The notes under the pieces: model-generated
What the model saw: the letters and a program-made list of their open reading frames with translations, nothing else
Told to the model about the DNA's origin: nothing
The model's database searches: none
Assembly: GCF_003339815.1 (NCBI RefSeq)
Contig: NZ_PPTT01000005.1
Coordinates: forward strand, 62,001-126,000
Length of the DNA stretch: 64,000 nt
From: Eggerthella sinensis
GTDB taxonomy: Bacteria; Actinomycetota; Coriobacteriia; Coriobacteriales; Eggerthellaceae
Direction: 5' to 3'
Part shown: positions 35,495-42,596 of the stretch, piece after piece
Layout: each line of letters opens with the position of its first letter
Position numbering within the stretch: position 1 is the first letter of the stretch
Made by a program: the position numbers and the translations under genes

Positions 35495-35532
35495 AACGAA
35501 GCGGCCCCCGCCGAAGCAGGGGCCGCTCGTTT
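35495..35532. terminator. Bidirectional terminator between the SNF2 helicase and accDA
   Basis: A stem GCGGCCCC / GGGGCCGC with AACGA / TCGTT extensions and a 10-base loop sits between convergent genes. It ends in short T-runs on both strands. It overlaps the last bases of accDA by two nucleotides. Confidence 0.6.
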
Positions 35533-38071
35533 AGTACTTCCCGAACCGCTCGTGGCGGGCGTGGACGAGGTCGTCGGCGGGAGTGCCGCAAAGCTCGTCG
35601 AGCGCGGCGCACACGTAGGCGCGCACGCCCTCGGCGGCCACCGCGGGGTTCTCGTGCGCGGGACGCGCGCCCTCGGACAGCACGGCGTCGACGATGCCCA
35701 TCTCGCAGGCCTCGGCGGCGCTCATCTTCATGACGGCGGCTGCCTCGGGAGCCCGCGTGCGATCCTTCCAGAGGATCGAGGCGAAACCCTCCGGCGAGAG
35801 CACCGAGTACACCGCATGCTCCTGCATGGCCACGCGGTCGGCCAGCGCGAGTGCGAGCGCGCCGCCGCTGCCGCCCTCGCCCAGAAGCACGCTCACCACG
35901 GGCACGCGCAGGCCCGCGAGCGCCAGCAGGTTGTCGGCGATGGCGTTGCCCTGTCCGCGCTCCTCTGCTTCCATGCCGCAGAACGCGCCCTGCGTGTCCA
36001 CGAGGCACACCACCGGACGGCCGAACTTCTCGGCCTGGCGCATGAGACGCAGCGACTTGCGGTAGCCCTCCGGCTGCGGGCAGCCGAAGTTGCGCGCGAT
36101 ACGTTCGCGCAGGTCGGAGCCCTTCTCCTGGGCGATCACCGTCACCGCGCGGCCGCCGATCCATCCAAGGCCGCACACGATGGCCCCGTCGTCGCCGAAC
36201 ATGCGGTCGCCGTGCAGCTCGATGAAGCCGTCCACGAACGCGTCGATGTAGGCGAGCGCCGTCGGACGGTGCACGTTGCGCGCCAGCTGCACGCTCTCCC
36301 ACGCGCGGTTCGACGTCGGCGCGCCGGCCTCGCGGGCGGCTGCGGACGCGTCTTCCAGCGACACGCCCGCTTCGGCATCGTACCCGCCCGTGCTGAGCAC
36401 CTTCTCCAAGCGCTTGCGCATGGAGGCGCCGCGTCGGTCGAAGCGCTCGGCCAGGGTGGCGATGCGGCCGCGCAGCTTGGCGCCGCCCCAGGCCACGTCC
36501 CCGAAGGGCAGGCCGCCCACCGTGAGGTCGCCGTACGTCACCGTGTTGTACGTGTCGGTGCCGCTGGCCAGGTTCTCGCACACGGCGTCGTAGCTCACAA
36601 GGATGTCGCGGTCGCCCGGCTCGTGGTCGTCGCGCGCTGCCACCGCGGTGGCCAGGTGCAGCGCCAGCAGATGCGCAAGCGTGCTGCGCAGCTCGTCGCG
36701 CTCCACGATGGCGTCGATCAGGCCGTGCTCGAGCGCGAACTCGGCGGTTTGGAAACCCTCGGGCAGCTCCTGTTTGATGGTGTCCTTGATGACGCGCTGC
36801 CCCGCGAAGCCGATGAGCGCGCGCGGCTCGGCCAGGATGACGTCGCCCTGCATGGCGAACGACGCGGTGACGCCGCCCGTCGTGGGGTCGGTGAGCACCG
36901 AGATGTAGGGCAGCTTCGCCTTCGCGTGACGCTCGAGGGCGCACGACACCTTCGCCATCTGCATGAGCGACACGAGGCCCTCCTGCATGCGCGCGCCGCC
37001 CGACGCGGTGAATATCACCACGGGCAGGCGCTCGTCGGTGGCGCGCTCCACGAGCCGCGCCACCTTCTCGCCCACCACCGAGCCCATCGAGCCCATGAAG
37101 AACTGCGACTCCATGATGCCGACGGCCACGCGCAGGCCCGCGATGCGGCCCTCGCCCGTGCGCACGCCCTCTTCGAGGCCCGTCTTCGCACGCTGCGTTT
37201 CGAGCTTGCCCAGGTAGCCGGGGAAGTCGAGCGGGTCGGTCTCGGGCACGACGCGGTTCCATTCCACGAAGCTGTCGGCGTCGAGCGTGTCGTCGATGCG
37301 CTCGCTCGAGGACATGCGCAGGTAGCCGCCGCACGTCGGGCACACGTAGTGCCCCGCCGCCAGGCTGGCCTCGTCGAACTTGAGGCCGCACTGCGGGCAC
37401 GCGCGCCACGCGTCGCTCTCGAACGCCGGCTTGTCGGTGGTGCACAGCACCCAGCCCAAGAGCGGCGCGTCGACGCTGAGCGGGCGGAACACGCGCACAC
37501 CGTGGGCGGCCGTGCGCGCGAGGAAGCTGTCCACCTCCGCGAGCGGCAGCGCCTCGTCGCACAGCAGCACCACCGAGGCGCCGCACGCGTCGATGGCGCT
37601 CAGCACGGCGTGGCTGTTGCAGAACAGCGCGTCGGAGTACTTCTCGCCGAGGCTCACCGTGCTCTGGGCCAGCTTGAGGTGGCCGTCGTTGCGGTGGTCC
37701 GCCGTGTACACGGCGCAGGTGGAGAACCCGGCGTCGGACACGGGCTGCAGCAGGCGCTTCGCCGTCTTCGGGCGCGCCATGACGAGCGCGACGGGCTTCG
37801 CGGCGCATACGGGGGCGCCGCCCGCGCCCGTGACGCGCGGCGCGGAGGTGGCCAGCGCCGGAGACACGGCGGTGTACTCGGACATGTCGGCCGCGTCGAG
37901 GGCGTTCGGGGCGACGGGCAGGGACGCAGCCGCCTCCTCGGCCATGCGCGTGAGGCGGTAGGCCACGTCGGCCGACTCGCTGGCCGGCGCGGCGACCGCG
38001 CGCGTGCCGCCCTGCGGCAGCACGCATCCGTCGGATCCGATGGTGATGTAGTTCTGGTTGCGCTGCTTCAT
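35531..38071 (-). CDS. Fused acetyl-CoA carboxylase carboxyltransferase (AccD-AccA) with N-terminal biotin-carboxylase-like remnant
   Basis: Transfers the carboxyl group from carboxybiotin to acetyl-CoA to make malonyl-CoA. Three parts are visible in 846 residues. Residues about 92-197 resemble the N-terminal domain of biotin carboxylase (AccC): VALVMARPKTAKRLL and TCAVYTADHRNDGHLKLAQ align with its typical lines, but its ATP-grasp and biotin sites are absent. Residues about 220-480 are AccD, with zinc ribbon Cys225/228/244/247 and GGARMQEGLVSLMQM. Residues about 530-846 are AccA, with FGCPQPEGYRKSLRLMRQAEKFGRPVV and GEGGSGGALALALADRV. Biotin carrier (AccB) and functional AccC must be elsewhere. 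It is last in the fab operon, 19 bases after fabZ. ATG 38071 lies behind GAGAGG. Confidence 0.9.
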   Translation of the reverse strand: MKQRNQNYITIGSDGCVLPQGGTRAVAAPASESADVAYRLTRMAEEAAASLPVAPNALDAADMSEYTAVSPALATSAPRVTGAGGAPVCAAKPVALVMARPKTAKRLLQPVSDAGFSTCAVYTADHRNDGHLKLAQSTVSLGEKYSDALFCNSHAVLSAIDACGASVVLLCDEALPLAEVDSFLARTAAHGVRVFRPLSVDAPLLGWVLCTTDKPAFESDAWRACPQCGLKFDEASLAAGHYVCPTCGGYLRMSSSERIDDTLDADSFVEWNRVVPETDPLDFPGYLGKLETQRAKTGLEEGVRTGEGRIAGLRVAVGIMESQFFMGSMGSVVGEKVARLVERATDERLPVVIFTASGGARMQEGLVSLMQMAKVSCALERHAKAKLPYISVLTDPTTGGVTASFAMQGDVILAEPRALIGFAGQRVIKDTIKQELPEGFQTAEFALEHGLIDAIVERDELRSTLAHLLALHLATAVAARDDHEPGDRDILVSYDAVCENLASGTDTYNTVTYGDLTVGGLPFGDVAWGGAKLRGRIATLAERFDRRGASMRKRLEKVLSTGGYDAEAGVSLEDASAAAREAGAPTSNRAWESVQLARNVHRPTALAYIDAFVDGFIELHGDRMFGDDGAIVCGLGWIGGRAVTVIAQEKGSDLRERIARNFGCPQPEGYRKSLRLMRQAEKFGRPVVCLVDTQGAFCGMEAEERGQGNAIADNLLALAGLRVPVVSVLLGEGGSGGALALALADRVAMQEHAVYSVLSPEGFASILWKDRTRAPEAAAVMKMSAAEACEMGIVDAVLSEGARPAHENPAVAAEGVRAYVCAALDELCGTPADDLVHARHERFGKY

Positions 38072-38090: not shown

Positions 38091-38540
38091 TTACGCTTCC
38101 GCTTTCGCCAGCACGTACTTCTGCGTCGCCGACGCGCACACCGCGCCGTCGACGCTCGCCTCCACCTCGGCCACGCACAAGCGCGACGAGGACTTCACGA
38201 TGCGCGCCTTGAGCACGAGCGTCTCGCCCGGCTCCACCTGACGACGGAACTTCGCGCCGTCGATGCCCGTGAGGAAGCCGATGGAGCCCTCGGCGCCGCG
38301 CTCGACGAGGATGCAGAACGAGGCCGCCTGCGCGAGTGCCTCCATGATGATGACGCCCGGCAGCACCGGATGCCCGGGGAAGTGCCCCTTGAACAGCGGC
38401 AGGTCGGGATCGACGTCGAGCTCGGCGGTCACGTCGACGCCCGGCTCGCACGCCACGACGCGGCTCACCCAGCAGAACGGGTCGCGATGCGGCAGCACCG
38501 CCTCGACGACGTCCTTGCCGCAGGGAAACGTGATGTCCAT
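38091..38540 (-). CDS. fabZ: 3-hydroxyacyl-ACP dehydratase FabZ
   Basis: Dehydrates 3-hydroxyacyl-ACP in fatty-acid elongation. The active-site block FKGHFPGHPVLPGVIIMEALAQ has His53 and Glu67 in position. The C-terminal half LTGIDGAKFRRQVEPGETLVL continues the hot-dog fold. The 149-residue length is normal. ATG 38540 lies six bases behind AAAGGA; a TTG five codons earlier is less likely. It follows fabF by 16 bases. Confidence 0.93.
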   Translation of the reverse strand: MDITFPCGKDVVEAVLPHRDPFCWVSRVVACEPGVDVTAELDVDPDLPLFKGHFPGHPVLPGVIIMEALAQAASFCILVERGAEGSIGFLTGIDGAKFRRQVEPGETLVLKARIVKSSSRLCVAEVEASVDGAVCASATQKYVLAKAEA

Positions 38541-38556
38541 GATGGTTCCTTTCAAC

Positions 38557-39846
38557 CTACGCGCGATACGGCGAAATGGCGAGGCTCGCGTTGTGGCCGC
38601 CGAATCCCAGCGAGTTCGACAGCGCCACCTTCTGCGGGTAGCCCGTCTTCGCCTCCGTGACCACGTTCACCGGGCACTCCGGGTCGGCCTCGGCGAAGCC
38701 GCAGGTGGGCGGCACGCAGTCGTGCATCACCGAAAGCGCCGTGACGATGGCCTCGATGGCGCCGGCGGCGCCGAGCGTGTGGCCCGTCGTGCCCTTCACC
38801 GACGTCACCGGCACTCGGACGCCCGCGTCCTCGCCGCAGAGCGCCAGCAGCGCCTTCGACTCGGTGGCGTCGTTGGCCGGCGTACCCGTGCCGTGCGCGT
38901 TCACATGTCCCAGGTCCTCAGGGCTAAAGCCGCCCTCCTCGAGCGCCTGGCGCATGGCGCGCGTCACGCCCTCGCCCGACGGCTCGGGAGCCGTCATGTG
39001 GTAGGCGTCGCCCGTCGAGCCGAAGCCCGTGATCTCGGCGAGCACGGTCGCGCCGCGCCCGAGCGCGTGCTCGAGCGACTCGACGACCACCGCGCCCGCG
39101 CCCTCGCCCGCCACGAAGCCGGCGCGGCGCACGTCGAACGGCAGCGACGCCTGCGCGGCATCCTCCGCCTTCGACAGCGCACCGAGGTTCGCGAAGCCCG
39201 CCAGGCAGATGGGCGACACGGATTCCTCCGAGCCGCCGGCCAGAGCCGCGTCGATGTAGCCGTGGCGGATATCGCGCACGGCCGCGCCGATGGAGTGCGC
39301 GCCGGTGGCGCAGGCGGTGACCACGTTGAGGCACTCGCCGCGCAAGCCGTAGCGGATGGAGAGGTTGCCGGCGGCGATGTTGCCGATCATCGTGGGGATG
39401 AACAGCGGGCTCACGCGCTTCGGCCCCTTCTCGGCCAGCGTGAAAAAGCCGCTCTGCAGCTCGTCGATGCCGCCGATGCCCGTGCCGAACACGCACGCGA
39501 TGCGCGTGGTGTCCTCGGTTTCGAGGTCGAGCCCGGATTGGGCGAGCGCCTCGTCGGACGCGACGATGGCGTACTGCACGAAGCGTTCGAAGCGCCGCGC
39601 CTCCTTCTTCGTGATGCCGTGCTCGGTGGCGTCGAAATCGCGCACCTCGGCGGCGATGTGCACGTCGTAGTCGGCCGTGTCGAAGCGCGTCACCGGGCCG
39701 ATGCAGCACTCCTTGCCCATGACCGCCCTCCACAGCGCCTCAACGCCCACGCCGGCGGGCGACACGGCGCCCATGCCGGTGATGACCACGCGATGCGTGC
39801 CGTCGGGACGGCGCGTGGCCGCCGTGCTCATGCTGTTCTCGCTCAT
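38557..39846 (-). CDS. fabF: 3-oxoacyl-ACP synthase II FabF
   Basis: Condenses malonyl-ACP with a growing acyl-ACP. The catalytic triad is complete: Cys179 (VVTACATGAHS), His318 (NAHGTGTP) and His356 (GTTGHTLGAAG). The C-terminal LSNSLGFGGHNASL is the other family signature. It has 429 residues. The start ATG 39846 overlaps the fabG stop by four bases (ATGA), so translation is coupled. The initiating enzyme FabH is missing from this operon. Confidence 0.95.
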   Translation of the reverse strand: MSENSMSTAATRRPDGTHRVVITGMGAVSPAGVGVEALWRAVMGKECCIGPVTRFDTADYDVHIAAEVRDFDATEHGITKKEARRFERFVQYAIVASDEALAQSGLDLETEDTTRIACVFGTGIGGIDELQSGFFTLAEKGPKRVSPLFIPTMIGNIAAGNLSIRYGLRGECLNVVTACATGAHSIGAAVRDIRHGYIDAALAGGSEESVSPICLAGFANLGALSKAEDAAQASLPFDVRRAGFVAGEGAGAVVVESLEHALGRGATVLAEITGFGSTGDAYHMTAPEPSGEGVTRAMRQALEEGGFSPEDLGHVNAHGTGTPANDATESKALLALCGEDAGVRVPVTSVKGTTGHTLGAAGAIEAIVTALSVMHDCVPPTCGFAEADPECPVNVVTEAKTGYPQKVALSNSLGFGGHNASLAISPYRA

Positions 39847-40607
39847 AGCGACATACCTCCGTCGATGCAGACAACCTGTCCGGTGATGTAGCCGGCCTCT
39901 TCGCTCGCCAGGAACCGGACGAGCGCAGCCACGTCCTCGGGCGCGCCGAGGCGCTTCGAGGCGATGCGGCCCACGATGGCCTCGCGCTGCTTCTCCGACA
40001 GCGCGTCGGTCATGTCGGTGGCGATGAAGCCCGGCGCCACCGCGTTGGCCGTGATGTTGCGGGCGGCCAGCTCGCGGGCGATGGACTTCGTGAGCCCGAT
40101 GACGCCGGCCTTCGAAGCGGCGTAGTTCGCCTGCCCCGCGTTGCCGGCCACGCCCACGACGCTCGACAGGTTCACGATGCGCCCGTAGCGCTGCTTCATC
40201 ATGCGCTGCGCCGCCGCCTTGCAGCAGTTGAACGTGCCCTTGAGGTTCACGTCGATGACGGCGTCGAAGTCCTCTTCCTTCATGCGGGCCAACAGGCCGT
40301 CGCGCGTGATGCCGGCGTTGTTCACCAGCACGTCCACGCGGCCGAAGGATTCGTGCGCAGCGGCCACGAGCCCCTCAGCCTCGGCGGCGTCGGCCACGTT
40401 CGCGGCCACCGCCAGGGTGCGCACGCCGTGATCGGCCTCAAGGGCGGCGGCGAAGGCGCGCGCCTCGTCGAGACCGCGCTCGCTCGAGCAGTTCACGCAC
40501 ACGTCGAAGCCCGCACGGGCGAGCTCCTCGGCCACGGCGCGGCCGATGCCGCGGCTCGAGCCAGTGACGACCGCGCTTCGGCGCGGGGTTTCGGTGTTCT
40601 CAGTCAT
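39843..40607 (-). CDS. fabG: 3-oxoacyl-ACP reductase FabG
   Basis: NADPH-dependent short-chain dehydrogenase that reduces 3-oxoacyl-ACP. The cofactor loop VTGSSRGIG (about 14-22), NNAG (about 96-99) and the catalytic Ser148-Tyr162-Lys166 set (NLSSVVG ... QANYAASKAG) are present, and it ends with the family YITGQVVCIDGGMSL. ATG 40607 sits 11 bases behind AGGAG, just after the fabD stop, with a 13-base gap. Confidence 0.95.
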   Translation of the reverse strand: MTENTETPRRSAVVTGSSRGIGRAVAEELARAGFDVCVNCSSERGLDEARAFAAALEADHGVRTLAVAANVADAAEAEGLVAAAHESFGRVDVLVNNAGITRDGLLARMKEEDFDAVIDVNLKGTFNCCKAAAQRMMKQRYGRIVNLSSVVGVAGNAGQANYAASKAGVIGLTKSIARELAARNITANAVAPGFIATDMTDALSEKQREAIVGRIASKRLGAPEDVAALVRFLASEEAGYITGQVVCIDGGMSL

Positions 40608-40620
40608 GGACGGGAAGCTC

Positions 40621-41604
40621 CTATTCGGAATCGGAAACAGTCGCGGCGGCGCCTTCGCCACAGGCGGCCAGGCACGCGTCGAAGCTCGCGCGATCCTGCA
40701 CGCATGCGCGCGCAGCGGTCTTGTCGATGCGCTTCACGAGGTTCGCCAGCACACCGCCGAAACCCACCTCGACGAACGTGTCGGCGCCGGCCGTGGTCAA
40801 GGCGGCCACGCTCGCGTCGAAGCGCACGGGACTCGTCAGATGGCGCACGAGGTGCTCGCGCGCCTCATCGGCGGCAAGCGGCGCGGCGGTCACGTTGCAG
40901 ATGAGCGGGATGCGCGGCTCGGCGAACGAGACGCCCGCGAGGTACGTCGCCAGCTCGTCGGCCACGCAGGCCATGAGCGGGCTGTGGAACGCGCCCGACG
41001 TGGCCAGGCGCGACGAGCGCTTGCCGGCAGCGGCCCACGCCGCCTCAGCGCGCTCGACGGCCGCGGGCGTACCGGCGATGACGATCTGCCCCGGGCAGTT
41101 GAAGTTCGCGGGCACGAGCACCTCGCCCTGCGCGTTATCCGCGCACAGCGCCTCGACGCTTGCCTCGTCGGCCTTCAGCAGCGCGCTCATGGCGCCAGGA
41201 TGCGCAGCGGCGGCCTCGGCCATGAGGCGCGAGCGCTGCTTCACGAAGGCGAACGTCGCCTCGTCGGAGAGCATGCCCGACACGGCCAGCGCGCTCACCT
41301 GCCCGAGCGAGAAACCCAGCACGCAGGCCGGCTCCACGCCGCGCGCCATGAGCGCGCGGGCGATGGCCACCGACAGCGCGCACAGCGCGGGCTGCGCGAA
41401 CCGCGTGTCGTTGAGCTTTTCGGGCTCGGCGTTGAGCACGAGGTCGGCCACGTCGAAGCCCAGCACGTCGGACGCGCAGGCGAACACGGCGGCAACCTCG
41501 GGCAGGTCGAGCAGGTCGGCGCCCATGCCGGGCTTCTGCGCGCCCTGGCCCGAGCACAAGAATACGGGGGAACCCGCCGCAATCGCGGGGATGGAGCAGC
41601 TCAT
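40621..41604 (-). CDS. fabD: Malonyl-CoA:ACP transacylase FabD
   Basis: Loads malonyl groups on acyl carrier protein. The nucleophile lies in GFSLGQ (residues 97-102, Ser99), where most FabD enzymes have GHSLGE. The glycine-rich FLCSGQGAQKPGMG (about 15-28) replaces the usual FPGQGAQ. The second catalytic histidine is in SGAFHSPLM (about 210). The 327-residue length is normal. ATG 41604 follows GGGGAGG. The His-to-Phe and Glu-to-Gln changes around the serine are unusual but the rest is intact. Confidence 0.93.
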   Translation of the reverse strand: MSCSIPAIAAGSPVFLCSGQGAQKPGMGADLLDLPEVAAVFACASDVLGFDVADLVLNAEPEKLNDTRFAQPALCALSVAIARALMARGVEPACVLGFSLGQVSALAVSGMLSDEATFAFVKQRSRLMAEAAAAHPGAMSALLKADEASVEALCADNAQGEVLVPANFNCPGQIVIAGTPAAVERAEAAWAAAGKRSSRLATSGAFHSPLMACVADELATYLAGVSFAEPRIPLICNVTAAPLAADEAREHLVRHLTSPVRFDASVAALTTAGADTFVEVGFGGVLANLVKRIDKTAARACVQDRASFDACLAACGEGAAATVSDSE

Positions 41605-41615
41605 GCGCGCCTCCC

Positions 41616-42596
41616 CTAGCCTGCCGCGCGATCGCGACGGGCGTTCGCGGCGGCCATGGCGGCCATATCGCGGGCGCCGAGCGCCTCGGCTTCGGCCATC
41701 ATCTGGGCGATCGCCTCGGCTGCGGTCGCGCGGTCGCGCACGAGCGCCGCCACCTGCCCGGCCATCATGGTGCCGTTGTCCACGTCGCCTTCGACGGCGC
41801 GGCGCAAGGACCCCACGTACATCGCCTCCAGCTCGTCGCCGTTCTGCGCCACGTCGCCCTCGAGCGAGCGCACCTTGCGGGCGAACTTGTTCTTGAGGCA
41901 GCGCACGGGATGCCCGCTGCCGCGGCCCGTGACGATGGTGTCGGCGTCCTTCGCGGCGATGACCTTCTCCTTGTACGCGTCGGCGATGGTGCACTCCTCC
42001 ACCGTAAGGAAGCGGGTGCCCACCTGCACGCCCTCGGCGCCCAGCGCGAAAGCGGCGGCCATGCCGCGCCCGTCGGCGATGCCGCCGGCCGCGATGACGG
42101 GAATGGACACGGCGTCGCACACCGCGGGCACGAGCGCCATCGTGGTCAGCTCGCCGATGTGGCCGCCGGCCTCGGTGCCTTCGGCCACCACGGCATCGGC
42201 GCCGAGGCGCTCCATGCGCGCCGCGAGCGCGCTCGAGGCCACCACGGGCACCACCTTGATGCCGGCGTTCTTCCACAGCTCCATGTAGTTCGCCGGGCTG
42301 CCCGCGCCGGTCGTGATGACGTCGACGCGCAGCTTCGCCAGCAGCTCGGCGGTCTCGCCGGCGTTCGGGTCCATGAGCATGACGTTCGCGCCGATGGGCT
42401 TGTCGGTCATCGAGCGGGCGATGCTCACCTGCTCCTCCACCCACGAAAGCGGCGCTCCGCCGCACGCGATGATGCCGAGGCCGCCGGCCTCGCTCACCGC
42501 CCCGGCCAGGCTCGCGTTGGCAATGCGCGCCATCGCGCCCTGGATGACCGGCACCTCGATGCCCAACAGTTCCGTAACCCGCGTGTTCATGCCCAT
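41616..42596 (-). CDS. fabK: Enoyl-ACP reductase FabK (FMN-dependent)
   Basis: Reduces trans-2-enoyl-ACP in the last step of elongation; the FMN enzyme is structurally unrelated to FabI and resists triclosan. The nitronate monooxygenase-like barrel has PVIQGAMARIANASLAGAVSEAGGLGIIACGG (about 15-46), DAVVAEGTEAGGHIG (FMN phosphate region) and GVQVGTRFLTVEE. The 326-residue length matches. No FabI-like gene is in the window. ATG 42596 lies behind AGGAAGAG; ATG 42590 is two codons later. It precedes fabD by 11 bases. Confidence 0.95.
   Translation of the reverse strand: MGMNTRVTELLGIEVPVIQGAMARIANASLAGAVSEAGGLGIIACGGAPLSWVEEQVSIARSMTDKPIGANVMLMDPNAGETAELLAKLRVDVITTGAGSPANYMELWKNAGIKVVPVVASSALAARMERLGADAVVAEGTEAGGHIGELTTMALVPAVCDAVSIPVIAAGGIADGRGMAAAFALGAEGVQVGTRFLTVEECTIADAYKEKVIAAKDADTIVTGRGSGHPVRCLKNKFARKVRSLEGDVAQNGDELEAMYVGSLRRAVEGDVDNGTMMAGQVAALVRDRATAAEAIAQMMAEAEALGARDMAAMAAANARRDRAAG

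Follow-up and report, generated by a model that had tools for sequence, protein, structure and literature searches.

A biotin carboxylase N-terminal domain joined to the AccDA carboxyltransferase of Eggerthella sinensis and related Eggerthellaceae

Introduction

The heteromeric AccA-AccD carboxyltransferases of bacteria (PDB 2f9i, 2f9y, and 8uxz) have an AccD part with a Zn ribbon and an AccA part. The AccDA protein described here has both, with sequence matches to these structures at E-values of 1e-80 to 1e-63 and with fold matches too. It differs from them in that AccD and AccA form one chain, which also carries a biotin carboxylase (BC) N-terminal domain and an 89-residue extension, and in that accB and accC lie outside its operon. 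Components are likewise joined in one chain in the multidomain acetyl-CoA carboxylases (ACCs) such as AccADCB (PDB 9kkm). The multidomain ACC of Saccharopolyspora has complete catalytic domains in one chain (PMC6491548), as has the BC-BCCP fusion of Chloroflexus (PMC11077971). While all these enzymes keep complete catalytic domains, AccDA of the window joins only a non-catalytic BC fragment to the carboxyltransferase. In actinobacterial acyl-CoA carboxylases, one alpha subunit (BC+BCCP) serves several beta subunits. A similar use of one biotin-bearing unit by more than one carboxyltransferase is proposed for AccDA, but the shared unit here would be an AccB on a pyruvate-type carboxyltransferase. 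The two-subunit pyruvate carboxylase PycA/PycB (PDB 5ks8) resembles this pyruvate-type enzyme in having a separate BC subunit adjoining an HMGL-PYC_OADA-biotinyl subunit, whereas the version of Coriobacteriia ends in a complete ACC-type AccB. No description of a carboxyltransferase with a non-catalytic BC fragment was found in the literature searched, which included little of the subscription literature.

The accDA gene and its parts

The window, i.e., the whole stretch of DNA analysed, is 64,000 nucleotides long and originates from Eggerthella sinensis. The accDA gene and its parts are as follows.

35531..38071, minus strand: accDA fusion gene coding for 846 aa, which include an N-terminal extension and a biotin-carboxylase-like domain (ORF and family matches)
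37805..38071, minus strand: N-terminal extension, residues 1-89, mostly disordered (predicted model and conservation)
37481..37792, minus strand: N-terminal domain of biotin carboxylase (pre-ATP-grasp fold), residues 94-197 (PF00289, hhalign to AccC, AlphaFold and Foldseek, PDB profile matches)
37532..37564, minus strand: position of HPGYGFLSEN, here LCDEALPLAEV (residues 170-180), motif lost (alignments)
36650..37432, minus strand: AccD (carboxyltransferase beta), residues 214-474, Zn ribbon C225-C247 (TIGR00515)
36317..36631, minus strand: AccD-AccA linker, residues 481-585, largely of low confidence (full-length model)
35534..36316, minus strand: AccA (carboxyltransferase alpha), residues 586-846 (PF03255, E=1.2e-109)

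The ORF is uninterrupted, with 0 internal stops. TIGR00515 matched the AccD part at residues 213-474 with 344 bits (cut-off 317), and all four Cys of the Zn ribbon are invariant in 30 relatives. The AccA part was recognized by PF03255 at residues 586-845 (366.7 bits, cut-off 23) and by TIGR00513 (321 bits, cut-off 319.3), and PRK05724 scored 354.3 bits on it, slightly under the cut-off of 357. AccDA is thus established by homology as an acetyl-CoA carboxyltransferase with complete AccD and AccA. The full-length model has pLDDT of 76.4 and pTM of 0.76. Residues 1-34 and 54-89 are disordered in it (pLDDT <50), a conserved helix spans 40-49, and a domain modelled with confidence, residues 90-213, continues into the Zn ribbon. 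Two short motifs of the extension are conserved, QNYIT close to the N-terminus and the helix VAYRLxRMAEEA (residues 36-48), which appear in relatives as an early Y-I/Y-T and a helix of approximately YRLxRIAxEA. The first ~89 residues have an origin other than accC.

Identity of residues 94-197

The original prediction was that residues of about 92-197 resemble the first domain of BC, and the limits found here are nearly the same. When the N-terminal 228 aa were scanned alone, PF00289 (Biotin_carb_N) matched residues 96-169 (E=1.4e-7, 32.4 bits, cut-off 25.5) and residues 96-168 aligned to positions 6-78 of TIGR00514 (accC). In the whole protein, PF00289 reached 28.8 bits and was still above the cut-off. 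A domain profile built with 37 relatives was compared in hhalign with the AccC proteins of the window's genome, giving an alignment of 102 columns over residues 94-197 (E=1.1e-10, 97%). A PDB profile search with the domain recovered 42 sequences at E<=0.001, every one of them BC or a BC-containing enzyme. Structure prediction agrees with these matches and gave the fold expected of a BC N-terminal domain, as the AlphaFold model of the domain alone has pLDDT of 96.1 and pTM of 0.90, and the best 50 PDB matches listed by Foldseek are all BC chains (BC, PC, PCC, ACC, and MCC; top E=3e-8). Judged by profiles and predicted fold, residues 94-197 are a complete BC N-terminal domain.

The ATP-grasp (PF02786) and C-terminal BC (PF02785) domains had no match in the 846 aa of AccDA at E<=10, in agreement with the earlier statement that the catalytic part is lacking, so the BC domain of AccDA should not catalyse. 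The similarity to the N-terminal domain of AccC (PF00289) includes the whole fold and the 102 columns. The differences from AccC are the missing ATP-grasp and C-terminal domains, the fusion to a carboxyltransferase, and the loss of HPGYGFLSEN, which is replaced by LCDEALPLAEV in AccDA of the window and by varying sequences in its relatives.

Gene order and distribution

Upstream of accDA, the fab genes FabK-FabD-FabG-FabF-FabZ are arranged at 38091-42596 on the minus strand in a Firmicutes-like order minus accB and accC.

38091..38555, minus strand: fabZ, adjoining accDA upstream with a gap of 19 bp (ORF; operon comparison)
38557..39846, minus strand: fabF (ORF; operon comparison)
39843..40661, minus strand: fabG (ORF)
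40621..41619, minus strand: fabD, acyl transferase, start approximate (PF00698 in this frame)
41616..42596, minus strand: fabK-like enoyl-ACP reductase, the first fab gene recognised (ORF; named by sequence and conserved gene order)

The observation made earlier that accB and accC are gone and the remaining genes keep their order holds for FabF-FabZ-accDA in the window, and extends to the relatives. Sister lineages have the order fabF-accB-fabZ-accC-accDA or accB-accC-accD-accA, with intact accC at the fabZ/accDA junction and accB between fabF and fabZ. At all 13 plain AccDA or AccD/AccA loci (13/13), an intact accC lies directly upstream of a carboxyltransferase without the extra domain. In neighbourhoods with domain-bearing AccDA, accB and accC are absent from 34/34 (12 + 22 in two samples, a few being from the same genome) and fabF-fabZ-accDA is kept. 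Their usual order is fabK-fabD-fabG-fabF-fabZ-accDA, with few loci varying or cut. Comparison of accDA N-termini among relatives separates plain accDA with intact accC upstream from domain-bearing loci without accB and accC.

The AccDA query was matched in 67 of 101 Eggerthellaceae genomes, and nearly all full-length matches carry the domain. Gordonibacter pamelaeae, Rubneribacter, Enteroscipio, Paraeggerthella, Ellagibacter, and Senegalimassilia are among the named relatives that have it. Beyond the Eggerthellaceae, the domain was found in three genomes, two from a second family of the same order and one from yet another family of the class. In 297 Actinomycetota genomes, no match above 58 bits was among the matches listed besides the Eggerthellaceae AccDA, and other Actinomycetota matches resemble ordinary BC-containing carboxylases, as judged by open-frame lengths. 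An AccD/AccA match is absent in G002, G004, G008, G009, and other Eggerthellaceae genomes, though AccC is present there; these bacteria are possibly fatty-acid auxotrophs. Genomes G018 (locus L134) and G039 (L135), placed in Eggerthellaceae, retain a domain-free accB-accC-accDA that belongs to a different lineage, which suggests operon replacement, transfer, or contamination. Genome G075 (L038) has a 932-aa AccDA and a second copy, diverged and split, in which a 349-aa frame matching query 75-243, from the N-domain region as far as the Zn ribbon, is followed by a 287-aa AccA.

Origin of the fusion

In the tree of the AccD+AccA core, from which the domain was left out, the domain-bearing AccDAs form a single clade (100/100). 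It adjoins accC-adjacent lineages, among which the branching order is weakly supported. A different fusion was found in genome G107 (L132:3471-5465, one draft genome), where AccC residues 1 to ~110 are joined in frame directly to AccD, with a junction differing from that of Eggerthellaceae. This gene codes for AccD-AccA without the AccD Zn ribbon and follows fabZ, and accB is absent. In the core tree, it groups with the plain, accC-adjacent L130 (96/84) inside a clade of eight rows (100/99). A single origin of both fusions was rejected by the one-clade constraint (p-AU 0.0014). Since the G107 fusion arose separately, accB was lost and accC cut to its first domain at least twice.

There is strong support for an ancestor whose fab operon included both accB and accC. 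accB was lost, and a deletion inside accC brought the N-terminal domain of AccC into frame with accD-accA. These changes occurred once on the stem leading to the domain-bearing clade (Eggerthellaceae plus a few allies) and again, separately, in a different family. A deletion fusing the start of accC to accD had been proposed from the window, and this origin of the N-terminal domain is supported by the gene order of the sisters, the single domain-bearing clade, and the separate fusion in G107. The tree of the domain (117 columns, long branch) is too short to name the donor, and it is gene order that points to the accC of the operon itself. The domain joins 5-oxoprolinase-type AccC in the free tree with support of 37/0, and no grouping with FAS-type, 5-oxoprolinase-type, or PycB-linked AccC was rejected (p-AU 0.24 for PycB-linked).

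Supply of AccC and AccB

The window's genome encodes two AccC and two biotinyl proteins, and the supplier for its AccDA is therefore ambiguous. The first AccC adjoins a 630-residue HMGL-PYC_OADA-biotinyl fusion (L104:4433-6325, contig C12). The second is in a 5-oxoprolinase-type operon with a separate accB (L105:2585-7260, contig C9). The latter cluster contains the 5-oxoprolinase-type carboxyltransferase genes CT_C_D and CT_A_B, its own accB and accC, and D-glutamate cyclase.

Throughout the class sample, HMGL-PYC_OADA proteins beside accC end in a complete AccB (homologues L140-L145 and L195-L201). TIGR00531 covers the AccB tail of the pyruvate-type subunit whole, at positions 1-155 (157.5 bits, cut-off 115.2), and the tails examined have the AccB N-terminal module, an Ala/Pro linker, PMVGTFY, and EAMKLMNEI. 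By its sequence, the protein is an apparent PycB-AccB fusion. PF02785 and PF00364 each match exactly once in at least 15 domain-bearing genomes of at least 95% estimated completeness, including the single-contig G030, a count in which diverged biotinyl domains could be missed. The sole PF00364 match lies in each case in an ORF of 620-690 aa, AccB fused to the pyruvate-carboxylase-type subunit beside accC. The simplest reading of these single-pair genomes, which offer no other AccC or AccB, is that AccDA uses the PycB-type AccB and the neighbouring AccC.

From gene content, AccC and AccB for AccDA probably come in trans from the pyruvate-type carboxylase, and AccDA would take carboxybiotin made in trans. 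As AccC and PycB-AccB are the only pair in many relatives, pyruvate and acetyl-CoA would both be carboxylated from a single biotin arm. In other orders of the class, AccD and AccA are plain and split, and many of these genomes have a single AccC beside the PycB-AccB fusion. AccB sharing thus cannot depend on the domain, and the idea that it requires the domain was not upheld, since orders without it apparently share too. Sharing of AccB may be older than the domain.

Selection and possible function of the domain

In the genus and near-genus relatives, the BC domain has dN/dS of 0.20-0.36, compared with 0.11-0.30 in AccD, 0.09-0.28 in AccA, and 0.15-0.60 in the extension (residues 1-89). Mean column conservation in 30 relatives is 0.56 for the domain, 0.76 for AccD, 0.80 for AccA, and 0.34 for the extension, and A159, W207, and W222 are invariant. 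The BC fold is kept at 22-90% identity across about 35 genera. The BC domain of AccDA is under purifying selection and is less constrained than the catalytic parts, so it has been domesticated and is not decaying as a fossil would. Of the phrase "fossil of accC" in the original prediction, the origin is upheld by gene order and the clade; the state it implies is contradicted by dN/dS of 0.20-0.36 and the kept fold. The retained domain would serve, with the helix at residues 36-48, as an assembly or docking surface, e.g., for the dimer of AccC or for the subunit that bears AccB. Such a role is plausible in view of the retention, the constraint, and the repeated capture of the BC N-domain.

The main rival to this contact-surface role is that the domain is an inert remnant or spacer before the Zn ribbon with no partner, the removal of which would break folding or translation. 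Lower conservation and higher dN/dS than in AccD and AccA are in line with such a spacer, as are the loss of the catalytic motif with no uniform replacement and the fact that other orders manage without the domain. It is nevertheless unlikely, because both independent fusions retained the whole BC N-domain, dN/dS is constrained, W207 and W222 are invariant, and the fold and core residues are kept in about 35 genera with identity down to 22%. A regulatory module binding a nucleotide, acyl-CoA, or acyl-ACP and controlling malonyl-CoA synthesis could be imagined from a Rossmann-like pre-ATP-grasp fold within the enzyme of the committed step, a role that is conjecture. It is highly improbable, as no conserved pocket motif stands in place of HPGYGFLSEN and the stretch varies among relatives.

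Regarding origin, a different AccC copy (5-oxoprolinase-type or PycB-linked) might instead have been duplicated and fused to give the domain. Both the free tree of the domain and the PycB-linked grouping, which was not rejected, agree with such a donor, but the placement in the free tree is unsupported, the domain occupies the exact position of accC in the sister operons, and accC was replaced in the same way in G107, where the N-terminus is more readily recognised as AccC. A donor other than the operon's accC is accordingly regarded as quite unlikely. That the likeness to AccC is mere chance between Rossmann-like folds would fit the commonness of such domains and the modest single-sequence match of 32 bits. 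This was ruled out, with a practically negligible probability left to it, by PDB profile matches exclusively to BC or BC-containing enzymes, by the best 50 fold matches listed being all BC, and by the domain replacing accC in the gene order.

Implications

The preferred account, with a probability of roughly 0.7, is that AccDA captured its BC N-domain from the neighbouring accC, is supplied with AccC and AccB in trans, and, less surely, uses the domain as a docking surface. A wider proposal is tentative and somewhat doubtful, namely that ACC of Eggerthellaceae, and perhaps of most Coriobacteriia, has no BC or carrier of its own and receives carboxybiotin via PycB-AccB, the domain helping to hold the joint machine in Eggerthellaceae. 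If true, a PycB-AccB/AccDA machine could pass carboxyl from oxaloacetate to acetyl-CoA without ATP. The locus is also an example of the rewiring of a multi-subunit enzyme, in which partner genes leave an operon and the remaining subunit captures a non-catalytic domain of the lost partner, twice independently. As many genomes appear to have one BC and one carrier, the carrier being on a pyruvate-type enzyme, a testable question on malonyl-CoA synthesis in gut bacteria arises.

ACC is an antibacterial target. Growth of E. lenta in defined medium needs biotin, and fatty acid synthesis is treated as essential in a systems study of this species, the main text of which is without acetyl-CoA carboxylase (PMC10234575). 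For both reasons, the wiring of ACC has a practical bearing. E. lenta is reported to have no annotated enoyl-ACP reductase (PMC10234575), and a FabK is an obvious candidate. Among the domain-bearing loci with sufficient flanking sequence, nearly all have a FabK-like gene in their fab operon.
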